A DNA stretch of 64,000 nucleotides from Halocatena halophila (GTDB taxonomy: Archaea; Halobacteriota; Halobacteria; Halobacteriales; Haloarculaceae): assembly GCA_027563145.1 (NCBI GenBank), contig CP071307.1, positions 62,001 through 126,000 on the forward strand. The letters are read 5' to 3'. Position numbers and translations under genes: made by a program. Below the pieces are notes generated by a model that saw only the letters and a program-made list of their open reading frames with translations, searched no databases and was not told where the DNA came from. Numbering within the stretch: the stretch's first letter is position 1; every line of letters starts with the position of its first letter. Shown here one piece after another: positions 14,268 to 20,336 of this stretch.

Positions 14268-14557
14268 CTCAAGTTGAGAAGGTCAGTTCCAATGCATGGA
14301 ATCCACTCCTCACAGGACTGGTAGAATTTGTCATTGGAGTTGTTCTATTAGGCCTTGCTAGCAAGAGAATTTTTGGAATCGGTCAAGTTGGGTCACCACC
14401 TGGCTTTCTCCAACCACTTACTAGCGTAGGGATTCCAGTAGACACACTCTTTCCGTGGGTTGTTTTAATCTTCCAGATACTAATAGGTTTAGCCGCTGTT
14501 TATAGTGGAATAGATAGCTTTCGTGATGTTAGACGGATAAGACAAGCTTCAAAATAA
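14186..14557 (+). CDS. Chimeric membrane ORF: IS flank fused to a 2-TM protein
   Basis: The frame is open from inside the IS right flank through the 33-bp motif at 14268 into a region with clear membrane-protein character: GLVEFVIGVVLLGLAS and later WVVLIFQILIGLAAVY, ending RRIRQASK. The C-terminal about 85 residues are probably the remaining part of a real membrane gene whose 5' end was replaced. Whether it is expressed is unknown. No family recognised. Confidence 0.4.
   Translation: MAILVLGSYSVWVQNTMILRKFQLLDTPQVEKVSSNAWNPLLTGLVEFVIGVVLLGLASKRIFGIGQVGSPPGFLQPLTSVGIPVDTLFPWVVLIFQILIGLAAVYSGIDSFRDVRRIRQASK
14268..14300 (+). repeat. Dispersed 33-bp motif, copy 3
   Basis: This is an exact match to the consensus halves. 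AGTTGA within it pairs with TCAACT of the IS right end 15 bp upstream. Confidence 0.65.
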
Positions 14558-14585
14558 GACGGCGATTCTCAACTTCTTCCACGCC

Positions 14586-14618
14586 CTCAAGTTGCGAATA
14601 TTGATTCCAATGCATCAG
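14586..14618 (+). repeat. Dispersed 33-bp motif, copy 4
   Basis: CTCAAGTTGCGAA, spacer, TTCCAATGCATCAG. It is followed by about 110 bp (14612-14725) that recur at 47690-47790. Confidence 0.6.
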
Positions 14619-14743
14619 AGGTCGGCTAGTTAGATTTGTCATGCATAACTATCAGAGAAATTTAGACTATCGGTATAGATTTCGAGCCAAGCCGTGCATG
14701 AGCAATCTACCTGCCCGACTTCTAAAACAGTATGCGAGTGCTT

Positions 14744-15391
14744 TCACTTCACCACTTCCTGCATCACCCTTGCTTCGGCCTTTCGGAGATGCTCGGCGAC
14801 TGTACCTCGCGAGAGTTCGAGTTTGGCCGCGAGATCACGCTGACCAGCCTTCCGAGGGAGATCATAATATCCTTCATTGATTGCAGCGCGCACGACCTCA
14901 ATTTGACGGTCTGTCAGGTGCCATGCGGGATCGCGCATTCCGGGATGGTAGTCCCCCGTTTTTTCAATCGTCACGTCTACAATTTCGGAGAGATCCGCGA
15001 CGACGTGTTGGAGAGATATGTCTTCACCGAGGAGCGTAAGTTGAAACCCCCGATCGGTATATCTGACTGGCCAGTCCACAGTAATCTTATGAGTATCGAT
15101 GATGTCGATGAGCGCCGTGTCGAGGGTTCCGGGATTCAAGTGTATGTATACAAACCCTGTTTCGCTCGTGGGTATGACCGACACATCTCCCAGCTCTGAC
15201 GTGCATCTCGTAAACCGTTCGATATCGCCAGTGAGTCGGACCAACTCGACAGCAGTTCCATCATCGAGCGGATTGAGATCATAGATCTCTTCATATGTTG
15301 CGATCACTTCGTCAGCTACCTGTACTTGTCTCAGTTCGTTGAATGTCTGGTGAGCGTCACTTGGGTCGATGATCAGGGCCACATATCTCAT
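14744..15391 (-). CDS. HTH-10 (Bat-type) transcriptional regulator
   Basis: The 215-residue protein is a paralogue of the one at 2968-3651: the same MRYV/ITLI-type start, a variable sensor region, then LTDRQIEVVRAAINEGYYDLPRK and an HTH (QRDLAAKLELSRGTVAEHLR) with KAEARVM. It is divergent from the membrane protein gene at 15523, 131 bp away, so that gene is a plausible target. The effector is unknown. Confidence 0.85.
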   Translation of the reverse strand: MRYVALIIDPSDAHQTFNELRQVQVADEVIATYEEIYDLNPLDDGTAVELVRLTGDIERFTRCTSELGDVSVIPTSETGFVYIHLNPGTLDTALIDIIDTHKITVDWPVRYTDRGFQLTLLGEDISLQHVVADLSEIVDVTIEKTGDYHPGMRDPAWHLTDRQIEVVRAAINEGYYDLPRKAGQRDLAAKLELSRGTVAEHLRKAEARVMQEVVK

Positions 15392-15522
15392 AAATTAACT
15401 CTCAATGATGTGTGTAAAGCAGCGTATCTCATATCTCACTCGATATTGCAGGACATATACTCTTAAACTTGCCGAGCATGCATGGCAGTAACTCCACACA
15501 CTCCCGTCCGCATTAGTTAGGT

Positions 15523-16059
15523 ATGAACGATCTGATTTACGTCGCTATCATCGGCTGTGAGATTGGGTTCTGGGTCGTGCTTCTTGCAGGGCTCTCCACT
15601 CGATATTTCCTCGGTCAGCAACGGCTGAGTACAGTGCTACTGGCAGGCGTCCCGCTTGTTGATTTGCTTTTACTGATGTTTACTGTAATCGACCTCAGTA
15701 ATGGGGGAACTGCAACCTCTGCCCATGGGTTAGCCGCGATATATATCGGATTTTCTGTCGCTTTTGGCCATCGCCTAATCCGCTGGGCCGATGAACGATT
15801 CTCCTACTGGTTCGCTGATGGTCCACCACCCACAAAACCACCGAAGACGGGTCGAGCGCACGCTCAACATGAACGCCATCAGTGGGGACGGCACTTTCTT
15901 GCTTGGATAATCGGCTGCGCTCTGCTTCTCGGGGCTGTTGCACTCATAGGTAATTTTGACAGGACGAGAGTGTTAACGGAGATGGCAAAATTATGGAGTG
16001 TCATCCTTGCGATCGATTTTGTCTGGTCATTCAGCTACACGATCTGGCCCAAGGGATAG
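15523..16059 (+). CDS. Integral membrane protein of unknown function
   Basis: The 178-residue protein has about five hydrophobic segments: residues 3-25, 37-58, 66-85, 125-145 and 157-173, with a hydrophilic charged loop (GPPPTKPPKTGRAHAQ) in between. It resembles conserved haloarchaeal membrane proteins but I cannot name a family. It is divergently paired with an HTH-10 regulator. Confidence 0.7.
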   Translation: MNDLIYVAIIGCEIGFWVVLLAGLSTRYFLGQQRLSTVLLAGVPLVDLLLLMFTVIDLSNGGTATSAHGLAAIYIGFSVAFGHRLIRWADERFSYWFADGPPPTKPPKTGRAHAQHERHQWGRHFLAWIIGCALLLGAVALIGNFDRTRVLTEMAKLWSVILAIDFVWSFSYTIWPKG

Positions 16060-16089
16060 GAGTGTCTCACGTGAGAATGGGAGGAGCAG

Positions 16090-16618
16090 ATGATCATCTC
16101 GACGGATTCGTTGCGGATGTCACGACCATCGCGCAGTCACAGTGCGAGCAGTGGGAGAGATACGACGACATCGAGATGCTGATCTGCCATTCCCGATCGA
16201 TCATCTCACGTTCGCTCCACACGATGTGTCCGCTCCGTACGCGGGACCGTACCCAATGTCGGTCCACGTTCGAGCCGGCCTGCTCGCGGAGATCAACGGC
16301 TAGGATGAAACCGCCCTCTACGACTACCTCAGAGAACACCTTTGCTGCGTCAGAATCCCGGCTTCAAGACGCTTCCGAACCAATCAACGTTCTGGCGTGC
16401 ATGGAACGAACGCTTCAGCGAGAAACTCCGCGATGCCGTACAGGAGTGTGCTGACGTGATTGTGATGGCTGCGCGTGCCTGCAAGGTCCCGCTTCCCGAC
16501 TGGATCGACCCACCGCTACCAGATCGGGAAGCTTTCCGTGTCGGAGATTCGCTCGATGGGTCGGTCTTTGCGACCATCGACGTAATCAAGGGCTTCCCAT
16601 TCACGGCGAGCAAGTTCT
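16090..16618 (+). mobile_element. Degraded N-terminal half of an IS4-like transposase (second family)
   Basis: Fragments in several frames: LDGFVADVTTIAQSQ, ETALYDYLREH, LPNQSTFWRAWNERFSE, VQECADVIVMAARACKVPLP and, after an internal deletion, FATIDVIKGFPFT (first catalytic Asp region). It ends at CTCAAGTTGAGG, which contains the first half of the dispersed motif. Non-functional. Confidence 0.7.
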
Positions 16619-16622
16619 CAAG

Positions 16623-16892
16623 TTGAGGTGCGCTCTGTGCGAATTTCATCTCCACGCAACACTCGGTGAAATCGTCCTTGATCATCCAGCTGTTGTTTCG
16701 CTGTTCCACAACCACGGGCTCGATCTTCGATCAGTGCCGCGATGGGAGCTTGACTTCTGTTTCGATGAGCAATACGTCAAACGCATATCTGAGGACTCAC
16801 TTCGTGGGCGAGTCGTGGTATCATGCGACAACGAGATGCTCGAACTCACACTCGGTGAGACAGGCACGGTAATTAACACATCTCATTACTAA
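16623..16892 (+). pseudogene. C-terminal domain of a haloarchaeal ArsR-like regulator (DUF7351-type)
   Basis: The frame reads CALCEFHLHATLGEIVLDHP, then VVSLFHNHGLDL, PRWELDFCFDE and ELTLGETGTV. This matches the C-terminal effector half of haloarchaeal winged-helix proteins with a zinc-finger-like centre. The HTH half is missing: the sequence begins directly at the end of an IS remnant, so this is a 5'-truncated gene even though a start codon happens to exist. Confidence 0.55.
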
Positions 16893-16941
16893 GCTGATTG
16901 GATGTGTTACTCGCAACCCGAGCCCAAACGACGATGCCAAA

Positions 16942-16974
16942 TCCATGCATCGATATCAACATTCGCAACTTGAG
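16942..16974 (-). repeat. Dispersed 33-bp motif, copy 5 (minus)
   Basis: Read on the minus strand: CTCAAGTTGCGAA, spacer, and a diverged second half ending GATGCATGGA. It separates the truncated regulator from the PHP gene. Confidence 0.5.
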
Positions 16975-17196
16975 GCGCACTCGTAGAGCACGTGAAGCGG
17001 ATGCCCAAAGTATTTCTTGGAACAAGTGACCGTCTGGAGGATGAGAGAGACAACAAACAGATTATAGAGCATAATACAGAATTTGCACTATCAGTTATCA
17101 TTGTAGCATATATGAAACTATGTGATATGATGAGTGATGTTCTTGTACTCTGTCCAAAATTCTCTCGTAATACTACTTTCTGAATCATTTATAGAA

Positions 17197-17395
17197 ATGG
17201 CTGAATCTACAACTATCGTTGATTCGTCTGCTAAATATTCCTCTCCAATGGAAGAAATAGAACGCAGTATTGACGGTGCTATGTATTTCAAAGCCGACCT
17301 TCATGTTCACCCACCCGGTTCGCACGACTATAATGCTGATATTTCTGCCAATGAGTTAGTGGATTCTTTCCTTGATGAAGGATTGGACTTGGTTA
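17197..17395 (+). pseudogene. PHP-domain phosphoesterase, first about 65 residues only
   Basis: From the ATG at 17197 the frame gives KADLHVHPPGSHDYNAD and LVDSFLDEGLDLV, the first metal-binding motif (DLHVH) and the start of the second strand of a PHP domain. At about 17390 the homology stops abruptly and the 3' end of the convergent nitrile hydratase operon begins. The rest of the gene was lost at this junction. Confidence 0.65.
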
Positions 17396-17788
17396 GTGGT
17401 CGTGATTGTGGGTATGTGTGTGGGCGTGGTCGACGCCGACGACGAACTCCGAGGCGTCGCGTTCGCCCGACTCGAATTCCCCTATCCGACGGTCGAGTAC
17501 ATCTCCACGCAACACGCCTTTGTCGTACAACAGCTGTTCCGCCGCCTCAAGCCAGTGGCGGTAGTAGACATCTTCGATGTCCTCATCGTCCGCGGTATCT
17601 GCCGATTCGATTGCCTCGATCAGCCGCGCCTGGAACTCATTCCACTCGAAGAATCCCTGCCGGTAGAGTGTCACCACGGTCGCGAACGCACGCGCCTGCC
17701 ACGGCGCGTCGAACGAGAGGTCACCTCCACGCTCGGGAAACTCTTCGCGCTCCCGCAGGTCAGCAATGATCTCGTCGAGATCAGTCAT
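17393..17788 (-). CDS. Nitrile hydratase activator/accessory protein, His-tailed
   Basis: The 131-residue protein has the NHase accessory pattern FDAPWQARAFATVVTLYRQG, WNEFQARLIEAI and YYRHWLEAAEQLL, which is also homologous to the N-terminal domain of the beta subunit. It ends in a His-rich tail (HAHTHTHNHDH), suited to metal binding. Activators of Co-type NHases deliver the metal to the alpha subunit and support Cys oxidation. Its ATG overlaps the alpha stop (ATGA). The TAA stop lies right at the junction with the truncated PHP gene, so the natural end may have been a little different. Confidence 0.85.
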   Translation of the reverse strand: MTDLDEIIADLREREEFPERGGDLSFDAPWQARAFATVVTLYRQGFFEWNEFQARLIEAIESADTADDEDIEDVYYRHWLEAAEQLLYDKGVLRGDVLDRRIGEFESGERDASEFVVGVDHAHTHTHNHDH

Positions 17789-18432
17789 AGCTCCTCCACA
17801 TGCTTGGTACCCAGCCGTTCGACCCCGATCATCGAATCCCGCGTGACGAGTGCCGTGAGGTCGGATTCGCTCATCCCGTCCGTCCCCACGGGTCGGCGGG
17901 GGAGCACCATGTAGCGAACCTCGGCGCTCGTGTCACGGACCCGTATCTCCACGTCGGCGTCAACGTCGACGCCGAACGCCTCGCGTAACGTTTGCCGGGG
18001 CGATTTAACGATCTTCGAGCGATACGGCGGTGACTTGTACCACGTCGGTGGTAGCCCGAGCACGGGCCACGGATAGCATGAGCAGAGTGTGCAAACGACG
18101 ACATTGTGAACATCGTCGGTGTTCTCCACGACGACGATATCCGTCCCTTCTGGTCCCGTGTAACCGAACGCCTCGGCGATCGCGGCCGAGCCGTCCTCAA
18201 GTAGCCATTCGCGGTACTCGGCGTCGACCCACGCTCTGGCGACGACCTCTGCGCCGTTCTGTGGACCGATCTCGTCCTCGTAGAGGCTCATGACCTCGTC
18301 GATCTGGTCGGTCGTGAGCAGTTCCTCCTCGATCAGATACGACTGGAGGGCACGTGCCCGTGCCTGCGGATCGGCGTCTCTCGGTACTGGATGTTCGTTC
18401 CCGTTCTCGTCCGGGGTCTGGTCTTGGCTCAT
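17785..18432 (-). CDS. nthA: Nitrile hydratase alpha subunit, Co-type
   Basis: I start at the ATG at 18430-18432, overlapping the preceding stop; the product is 215 residues. The metal site is VCTLCSCYPW with Cys114, Cys117, Ser118 and Cys119; Thr at 115 is typical of cobalt enzymes (Ser in iron enzymes). The flanking YKSPPYRSKIV and REAFG motifs and the C-terminal RYMVLPRRPVGT fit the family. Together with beta it hydrates nitriles to amides in the cytosol. No amidase gene is present in the window. Confidence 0.92.
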   Translation of the reverse strand: MSQDQTPDENGNEHPVPRDADPQARARALQSYLIEEELLTTDQIDEVMSLYEDEIGPQNGAEVVARAWVDAEYREWLLEDGSAAIAEAFGYTGPEGTDIVVVENTDDVHNVVVCTLCSCYPWPVLGLPPTWYKSPPYRSKIVKSPRQTLREAFGVDVDADVEIRVRDTSAEVRYMVLPRRPVGTDGMSESDLTALVTRDSMIGVERLGTKHVEEL

Positions 18433-18722
18433 GGTTGTAGTCGTTCGTTCTCGACGTCTCGCATGTCGTCGGGCTTGAGCGCACTCTCCCAGAGGTCGAT
18501 GTAGACTGCCTGGTTCGATTCGGAGTCCTCCCAGAGCTCGCTGGGGTCGAACCGGACGGAGTACAGGAACTCCGACTCGGCCGTGTCCGGCGGGAAGTAT
18601 TCTCCGTGGACGCACTCAACGATGCCACTCGCATTCTGGGCGTAGTCGGGTCGACGTTTGTAGCCCTGGGAAACCTCTCCTACCACAACCCGGTCCCGTG
18701 GCTCGAAGGCGGGATCGTTCAT
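18429..18722 (-). CDS. Stand-alone nitrile hydratase beta C-terminal domain (SH3-like)
   Basis: This 97-residue protein is homologous to residues about 130-223 of the upstream beta subunit: FEPRDRVVV against FEAGDNVVV, RRPDYAQNASGIVECVHGEY against RCPRYVRRAQGTVARVDGG, and YSVRFDPSELW then AVYIDLWES against YHVRFDAAELW then AVYVDLWES. It has no N-terminal helical domain. Both its ends overlap neighbours by ATGA, so it is not debris. In thiocyanate hydrolase the beta chain is split into two subunits, one equivalent to this domain; here it exists in addition to a full beta. Confidence 0.8.
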   Translation of the reverse strand: MNDPAFEPRDRVVVGEVSQGYKRRPDYAQNASGIVECVHGEYFPPDTAESEFLYSVRFDPSELWEDSESNQAVYIDLWESALKPDDMRDVENERLQP

Positions 18723-19390
18723 GGGGGCACCAGGTAGCTTTCCCAGAGGTCGACATACACCGCATTGTTTCCCTCGGCATCGGCGCCCCAGAGTTCAGCA
18801 GCGTCGAATCGGACGTGGTAGACTGGTTCCACGATCTTCCCCTCCCCGTGGGGGCTCGCATTGGGCAGCGAGAAGCCTCCGTCCACGCGTGCGACGGTTC
18901 CCTGGGCGCGGCGGACGTACCTCGGACATCGGGTGTGTCCCCCAGGGTGGCTGTTCTTCACGACCACGTTGTCTCCCGCTTCGAAGGCCGGCGTGACCGA
19001 CTCGTCTCGCCTTGATGAGCGATTCTCGTGGGACGCACGCATCGCTTCGACGACATTGGAGTCGAACCGTTCGGGCAGGTCGTCGTCGAACTCTCGGGCC
19101 GTGCCCAGCGCGTCGATCCGCTCGCGTAATTCGTCGGCATCGATGGTCCCTTTCTCCGTGAAGAGTTTCTCCATGGCGACGAGCCAGTGCTCGTAGTAGC
19201 TCGACCCGAGGTAGTAGGCCGGATCCATGCGTTCGATCGCATGCCGGAATTCGTCGACGTTGTACTCGCTATCCGCGAACTGCATCGCGAACACCCGCTC
19301 CTCCCACACCTCGTGAAAGATCGGTTCGTCCTCCTCTCGCTCGACGGGACCCATGCCGTCCATCCCGCCGAGATCGTGTATCCCGTCCAT
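18719..19390 (-). CDS. nthB: Nitrile hydratase beta subunit
   Basis: The 223-residue protein begins MDGIHDLGGMDGMGPV, the hallmark NHase beta start. Next come the helical N-terminal domain (WEERVFAMQF; YYEHWLVAMEKLF) and the SH3-like C-terminal domain (GDNVVVKNSHPGGHTRCPRY, AVYVDLWESYLVPP). It is first in the operon. A TATA-like TTTAAGATA lies at 19410-19418, about 25 bp before the ATG, suggesting a leaderless or nearly leaderless transcript. The operon is visibly GC-rich compared with both flanks. Confidence 0.92.
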   Translation of the reverse strand: MDGIHDLGGMDGMGPVEREEDEPIFHEVWEERVFAMQFADSEYNVDEFRHAIERMDPAYYLGSSYYEHWLVAMEKLFTEKGTIDADELRERIDALGTAREFDDDLPERFDSNVVEAMRASHENRSSRRDESVTPAFEAGDNVVVKNSHPGGHTRCPRYVRRAQGTVARVDGGFSLPNASPHGEGKIVEPVYHVRFDAAELWGADAEGNNAVYVDLWESYLVPP

Positions 19391-19471
19391 GAGAACGTCT
19401 ACTACGAACTATCTTAAAGTAATGTCGTACGAACAGATGGCTCGGACCGGCAACCTGACTTCGCCCACCCG

Positions 19472-20336
19472 TTACCCGAGGGCCACGGGTGATGCTTGAT
19501 GCTCGGCCAGTCCGGAAGGGCGATACTCTAGTGGAGATTGTCACGGATCTCCTCGAGTCTGCCGAAGATTTGATTCAGATCGAGCGTGTGTTGATGGATC
19601 GCGAGTTCGACAGCCAGCACGTCCTGGAGAGGATCGTTGAGCGTGGTTACGAGTACCTTCTCCCGAAGCGTAAACAGACGAGCAAAAAGGCCGTTGCCGG
19701 CCGGATGGAGAACCACGGAGTTGAGACGACGGTCAACAAGCGTATGCTTCACCTTGGAAAGAACGAATGGCACGAGACCCATCTACTGTACTTACCCAAG
19801 AGAGAATTTTCAGGCCAGATTGAGGAGAGTCACGAACGATACGTGGTGTTCATGTCGTCAGGACCGTGACAGGGACCGTTGAAGGCCGAGTAAGTTTCTA
19901 TAGCAACCGTTGGAAGATCGAGATCGGCTACAAGCATGTTAAGCGGTTCATGGCGAAAACGACCTCAAAGGACTTCGTGCTGCGGTTTTTCTACTTTGCG
20001 TTTGCTTGCTTGCTGTACTCGTTGTGGCGGCTAATCGACCATCTGGTGCAGGTGTTTTTCACGGACACCTACGGCGATGTCCCGTAGGTGACGATGCACG
20101 ATGTGCTTACCTCGCTGAAAAAGCGCACTGGCGTAGGCTAGCGCCCCGTTCGTTCCGTGATTTCCTGATAGAGAGTGCGGCTGGGCTACCCCACTTTACA
20201 AAATAGTACAATTAATGAATATTCTCGGCTATCTTTACTTAATATTATACCAACTAGGGAGCTTTAGCACATTATTCATGCATCAAATACGAGAATAATA
20301 CAGTGATCAACAGAAATTCTCAACTGGTGGTGCATG
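19472..20336 (+). mobile_element. IS4-like element, C-terminal half with frameshifts and right flank
   Basis: 19489-19869 encodes VRKGDTLVEIVTDLL, VLMDREFDSQHV (second catalytic Asp), then a stop. 19866-20087 continues YSNRWKIEIGYKHVKRFMAK, which keeps the Y-x2-R-x3-E-x6-K signature of IS4-type transposases, but a TAG replaces the Trp of DDPWVTM. The 3' flank extends to about 20336. The left junction (about 19470) lies 80 bp upstream of the nitrile hydratase start. Confidence 0.8.

Follow-up and report, generated by a model that had tools for sequence, protein, structure and literature searches.

Why should an operon that encodes a complete beta subunit of nitrile hydratase (NHase) also carry, as a separate gene, a further carboxy-terminal half of that subunit? 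The question is raised by a locus of Halocatena halophila, within the 64,000-nucleotide stretch of DNA that was analysed (contig CP071307.1, positions 62,001 to 126,000; hereafter the window), where four minus-strand genes follow one another in the 5′ to 3′ order beta, half-beta, alpha and activator (Table 1). An earlier note on this DNA had read them as a four-gene NHase operon with ATGA joints, and the gene coordinates and all three 4-base overlaps were confirmed.

A Co-type operon with one gene more

Table 1. Features of the NHase operon, in positions of the window.
Feature	Position	Strand	Description
NHase beta subunit	18719..19390	(-)	223 aa, intact; PF21006 and PF02211, TIGR03888 passed
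Half-beta, stand-alone NHase beta C-terminal SH3-like domain	18429..18722	(-)	97 aa; YKRRPDYAQNA motif; Arg23 is the Arg157 equivalent
NHase alpha subunit	17785..18432	(-)	215 aa; PF02979, TIGR01323; metal motif CTLCSC
NHase activator (accessory protein)	17393..17788	(-)	131 aa; PF21006, TIGR03889; His-rich tail; Gln at Arg52 position
ATGA overlap, beta/half-beta joint	18719..18722	(-)	4 bases
ATGA overlap, half-beta/alpha joint	18429..18432	(-)	4 bases
ATGA overlap, alpha/activator joint	17785..17788	(-)	4 bases
Putative promoter, TTTAAG ~28 bases upstream of the beta ATG	19391..19425	(-)	Predicted from sequence

By prediction from the alpha, beta and activator models and motifs, the operon is a Co-type nitrile hydratase. 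The activator gene directly follows alpha and its product passed the NCBIfam model TIGR03889 with 83.3 bits (cut-off 46), while the Thr in the metal motif of alpha, which is present in single copy in the genome, is what we take to be the mark of the Co type. The beta subunit has the equivalents of both Arg52 and Arg157, the first as Arg49, aligned with the Arg of DEFRH in P. putida 3qxe_B (residue 52 by count), and the second within HTRCPRY; we take Arg52 of Pseudonocardia to be the same residue as the DEFRH Arg. The position of TTTAAG before the beta ATG presumably fits the leaderless transcripts of haloarchaea. A transposase-like ORF (window 19489-19869; DDE_Tnp_1, 22.6 bits, cut-off 23) precedes the beta start by about 100 bases.

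In Co-type operons of the beta-alpha-activator kind (layout B in the available text of PMC7193024, and the plasmid records of Rhodococcus rhodochrous BX2, Tistrella and Parageobacillus) the same three proteins occur in the same order, whereas the window operon adds a stand-alone beta C-domain between beta and alpha. Full beta plus half-beta appears in none of the six NHase-type layouts reviewed in that text, which also describes the genes of thiocyanate hydrolase as a cluster of four, for three subunits and an activator. The ScNHase of Streptomyces canus (AnhD, AnhE, AnhA) likewise has a stand-alone beta C-half, AnhE of 11.35 kDa, likened to ours by description rather than by sequence, but there beta exists only as the halves AnhD and AnhE, the N-half AnhD doubling as activator, and no activator gene is recognised, whereas the window operon has a full beta and an activator (PMC7329996, available text). 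The thiocyanate hydrolase of Thiobacillus thioparus (PDB 2dd4) also comes from four genes, and our half-beta model resembles the fold of its chain 2dd4_A. To our knowledge it has no full beta but only one made of two chains, in contrast to the full 223-aa beta of the window operon, and we know of no full-length beta in toyocamycin nitrile hydratase ToyJKL, a three-chain NHase with a split beta.

Judged by its sequences, the window operon is not a thiocyanate hydrolase. The suggestion that it might be an intermediate towards that enzyme did not hold up: alpha passed the NHase alpha model TIGR01323 (273 bits, cut-off 249.85) and failed the SCNase gamma model TIGR03887 (173 bits, cut-off 291.45; both NCBIfam), and the half-beta groups with haloarchaeal betas, in a tree without an SCNase row. 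The statement that both halves of beta are encoded separately as well as fused is true in Pfam form, the activator matching the beta N-half at E 7e-07, but resemblance to the beta N-half is normal for the activator of a Co-type NHase and the half-beta alone is unusual. Similarly, the His-rich tail that had been pointed out in the activator is real (its C-terminal end reads HAHTHTHNHDH) but not peculiar to this operon, since at least 15 of 40 haloarchaeal activators, counted by eye, have four or more His beyond the matched part. What appears to be new at the sequence level is a full beta together with a stand-alone half-beta in one NHase operon, beta, alpha and activator being an already known set. 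The earlier note knew of no description of the layout, and we too found no published account of beta, half-beta, alpha and activator together among open-licence PMC papers.

Fold, distribution and selection of the half-beta

The half-beta matches a single Pfam family, PF02211 (E 2.6e-16, 60.3 bits, gathering cut-off 27.7), and in a single pairwise comparison 40 of 89 residues (45%) were identical to beta residues 134-222 (E 2e-18). Its AF2 model (mean pLDDT 82.7) has 29 PDB matches at E ≤ 0.001, all of them NHase beta or thiocyanate hydrolase chains, with TMq of 0.72-0.79 and rmsd of 1.6-2.2 against NHase beta chains; it is thus predicted to share the fold of the NHase beta C-domain. The fold of 2dd4_A was matched at TMq 0.77, and no sequence match of the window half-beta with this chain was found at E ≤ 1. 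A chance ORF is ruled out by the PF02211 match, the likeness to beta and a homologue in another genus.

That homologue belongs to G398, an 80% complete genome in which beta (241 aa) and half-beta (112 aa) lie on one strand, 4 bases apart. They are followed by a CbtA-type gene (L089 3940-4659, PF09490; probable cobalt transporter) and then, on the opposite strand, by alpha and activator, the CbtA-type gene separating the two NHase gene pairs. The half-beta therefore stays with beta even when alpha and activator sit elsewhere. In a Rahnella plasmid record, NHase is followed by CbtB and CbtA genes.

Among the 51 haloarchaeal genomes with a beta C domain (a union by hand of overlapping genome sets, some genomes incomplete), an adjacent stand-alone C domain was found in three: that of the window, that of a sister species and G398. 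In a draw of 391 class-mates, alpha and the beta C domain each occurred in 31 genomes, and the window's genome alone had an adjacent second stand-alone C domain; the two C domains of G256 lie within two complete betas on two contigs. The search of the family to which the window's genome belongs was keyed on alpha, which an orphan half-beta could escape, and gave alpha in 15 of 146 genomes; the ten newly met ones were profiled for PF02211, with a second adjacent C domain in G403 and G398. G403 and G391 were treated as one genome, their contig number and coordinates being identical. Further groups (18/170, 11/125 and 4/10) and the genus of G398 (1/32, G398 itself) yielded no new half-beta. No hidden half-beta was found in G026, G311 and G131, where a long gap separates beta and alpha, the ORFs in these gaps being unrelated by eye, and at these loci tblastn with the half-beta gave no second place and PF02211 one match per genome. 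A haloarchaeal search for the same gene order, as had been proposed, thus found the half-beta beside beta in the sister species and G398 and found it absent from 48 of the 51 genomes; homologous operons without the 97-aa gene, which the earlier note would have counted against its reading if no function were lost, indicate that the half-beta is not generally needed.

With the half-beta as query, plasmid records gave 41 tblastn places in 40 records, ten of which were examined without finding the four-gene layout; nine of the ten have an alpha match beside a beta with both halves. In the Rhizobium NIBRBAC000502774 record the two beta halves are in different frames, and in the Ensifer NER9 record alpha is in two frames. 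The plasmid of Neorhizobium sp. EC2-8 has a lone SH3-like beta C-domain gene (L088 4926-5228, 303 bases including the stop; one of two tblastn places in this record), which had no alpha match up to 5 kb away; up to 15 kb away the PLSDB tables, which are incomplete, annotate no alpha.

The half-beta proteins of the sister species and the window being identical, there are two distinct half-beta proteins. Compared with 45 haloarchaeal beta C domains, both keep R25, P27, Y29, G35, P47, Y73, V75, W83, L108 and E110 and both replace P20, H23, T24, C26, R31 and Y112 (alignment columns). The common replacements (H to Y/F, T to K, C to R and R to Q/E) fall on sites that are invariant or nearly so in the 45 betas. 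Indeed, KRRPDY in the half-beta stands where betas have HTRCPRY, and the H-T-R that is invariant in all 45 has become Y-K-R and F-K-R, with Arg alone kept. Counted on the alignment, this Arg is residue 157 of 1ugp_B, and the title of the PDB match 9d6k names a BR157A mutant. Pseudonocardia beta has Ala at the Thr site and Arg at the Cys site, so that two of the replaced sites are not fixed in bacteria.

A gene that adjoins beta in both layouts, with core residues kept and changes beside the active-site Arg, could encode a structural third subunit of the finished alpha-beta enzyme, acting in salt stability or oligomer size rather than in maturation. The 48 haloarchaeal genomes without a half-beta, whose NHases presumably work in salt, argue against this, and we consider it unlikely, if still a serious candidate.

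The sister species, Halobacteriales archaeon YIM A00013 (L061, in G391), allowed a comparison of substitutions. Its half-beta differs from that of the window by 5 synonymous and no replacement changes (dN/dS 0.00), for which the neutral chance is 0.0005-0.002 for kappa 1-8. The other genes showed 12 synonymous and 10 replacement changes in beta (stop set aside; dN/dS 0.23), 12 and 7 in alpha (0.18) and 5 and 6 in the activator (0.34), and the contrast of the half-beta with these three was not significant (Fisher p 0.07). On account of the sister-species substitutions and of the diverged homologue in another genus, the half-beta looks like a separate protein that is maintained by selection, as had been claimed from the ATGA overlaps, now on more than the overlaps alone.

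The sister beta (L061 4333-5004; the same gene in L091) is interrupted by an in-frame stop at codon 63, whereas the frames of half-beta, alpha and activator are open. Genuine decay or a mistake in the assembly could explain the stop, and the NHase locus may be decaying in this species. A block of about 5.2 kb that holds the operon (window 14297-19517) is common to both species; just outside it the sister DNA matches repeats at other places of the window, which are probably insertion sequences, and within the block dS is 0.06-0.09 in the operon as against 0.015-0.027 in four neighbouring ORFs. The broken sister beta, the rarity and long branches of the half-beta and the broken appearance of NHase genes elsewhere in haloarchaea (one stop in alpha of G407; beta of G131 aligned in two frames) would suit a leftover duplicate heading for loss, kept in frame by chance and by the operon overlap. 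Such a leftover is improbable in our judgement, set against the five synonymous and no replacement changes and an open homologue in another genus that shares the replacements. The half-beta is probably a true added part of the enzyme or of its assembly, because it is found in another genus too.

A probable single old origin

The two distinct half-betas form one clade (support 99/97) with long branches, and trees constrained to pair each half-beta with its own beta were rejected (p-AU 0.0112 and 0.0069). The half-beta tree rules out a recent duplication of the window's beta alone as the source. When 12 bacterial rows were added, which left out AnhE, ToyL and SCNase, the half-betas grouped with haloarchaeal betas on one side (99/99), and an origin from a bacterial split beta is not supported by this set. 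Whether the half-betas branch before the 45 haloarchaeal betas or inside them made little difference (p-AU 0.464). The N-terminus of the G398 half-beta (GLPPREA) resembles the linker that precedes the C domain in the beta of Pseudonocardia (GGLPASREV); this gives a weak hint of a copied 3′ part of beta.

The alpha tree, which covers 40 loci in 39 of the 51 genomes, unites the three carriers in one clade (99/91), with G198/G452, which have no half-beta, as its sister. Both a single gain in the carrier clade and an older gain followed by losses fit these data, and the half-beta, rare as it is, appears to be a genuine part that was added to a Co-type NHase operon once. In 19 of the 40 haloarchaeal NHase loci (L002, L005, L008, L010-L013, L015-L019, L021, L023, L027, L028, L072, L073 and L075) the alpha and activator matches end at one stop codon in one frame, a natural alpha-activator fusion, and in the alpha tree these fusions are not confined to a single branch.

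What the half-beta may do

Could the activator and the half-beta together stand in for beta? Activity requires both Arg52 and Arg157 of beta, which bind the oxidised cysteines (PMC7587978, available text), and the salt bridges of these two residues are considered the driving force of subunit swapping (PMC7193024, available text). The Arg52 column has Arg in 40 of 40 betas (40 of the 45, with G214, G247, G364, G403 and G514 left out by a start/length filter); of 40 activators, 38 have Gln there and two have Arg. The window operon has no stand-alone N-half other than its activator, which is among those with Gln. A beta-free enzyme is thus unlikely, the activator being without the Arg at position 52 that is needed for activity; a complex engaging the Arg157 side only is possible.

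The three-chain catalytic enzyme of alpha, activator and half-beta that the earlier note had suggested is consequently disfavoured. In such an enzyme the half-beta would replace beta, after the manner of thiocyanate hydrolase or ScNHase and with another substrate, alongside the normal alpha-beta enzyme; both Pfam halves of beta are indeed encoded apart, ScNHase is functional with a split beta whose AnhD is also its activator (PMC7329996, available text), the sister species has an interrupted beta next to three open genes, and the G398 half-beta matches the thiocyanate hydrolase alpha chain 2dd4_A by sequence at E 6.9e-5, a rank below its NHase matches. However, besides the Gln at the Arg52 position, the His of HTR is missing from both half-betas, activator and half-beta are non-adjacent in both layouts and beta is intact in two of the three carriers, and we regard this enzyme as very improbable.

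The computations support homology, the predicted fold, one origin, purifying selection and a place next to beta in two layouts. We give about an even chance to the explanation that a Co-type NHase clade copied the 3′ part of beta and so gained the half-beta, a dedicated additional subunit or assembly factor; its role in NHase assembly is what we infer. The half-beta would go back to a single old event in which the 3′ half of a haloarchaeal beta gene was duplicated. It would be made together with beta and take part in NHase assembly, either as a place-holder or as an accessory subunit. As a guess, its SH3-like face might dock where the beta C-domain meets the metal loop of alpha, and the kept Arg157 equivalent would act on the oxidised cysteines. 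The half-beta would do so either next to the activator while cobalt is being loaded or on a beta that alpha has not yet reached. The complex would be a maturation or holding state and not a second active enzyme, since the pair of activator and half-beta is without the Arg of position 52 and the His of HTR. A more specific and rather doubtful version makes the half-beta a maturation clamp: with the N-half-like activator it would form a two-piece mimic of beta around alpha, offering Arg157 only to the newly oxidised cobalt-cysteine loop, and would hold alpha loaded but inactive until the true beta takes over. If this version is true, the mimic might be the only partner left to alpha in the sister species with its interrupted beta.

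Cobalt loading by the activator and the handover of alpha to beta have been argued from few bacterial enzymes. An operon with a whole beta and an altered, separate C-half would offer a natural test of which half of beta meets alpha and when, and of whether contact from the Arg157 side is enough to engage the modified cysteines. The practical stake is modest, in that NHase is used industrially and the way it matures matters for its expression. For the family, besides the splitting of beta seen in ScNHase and SCNase and its fusion to alpha in the eukaryotic NHase, the half-beta would represent a third route, in which half of a subunit is copied and the whole is kept.
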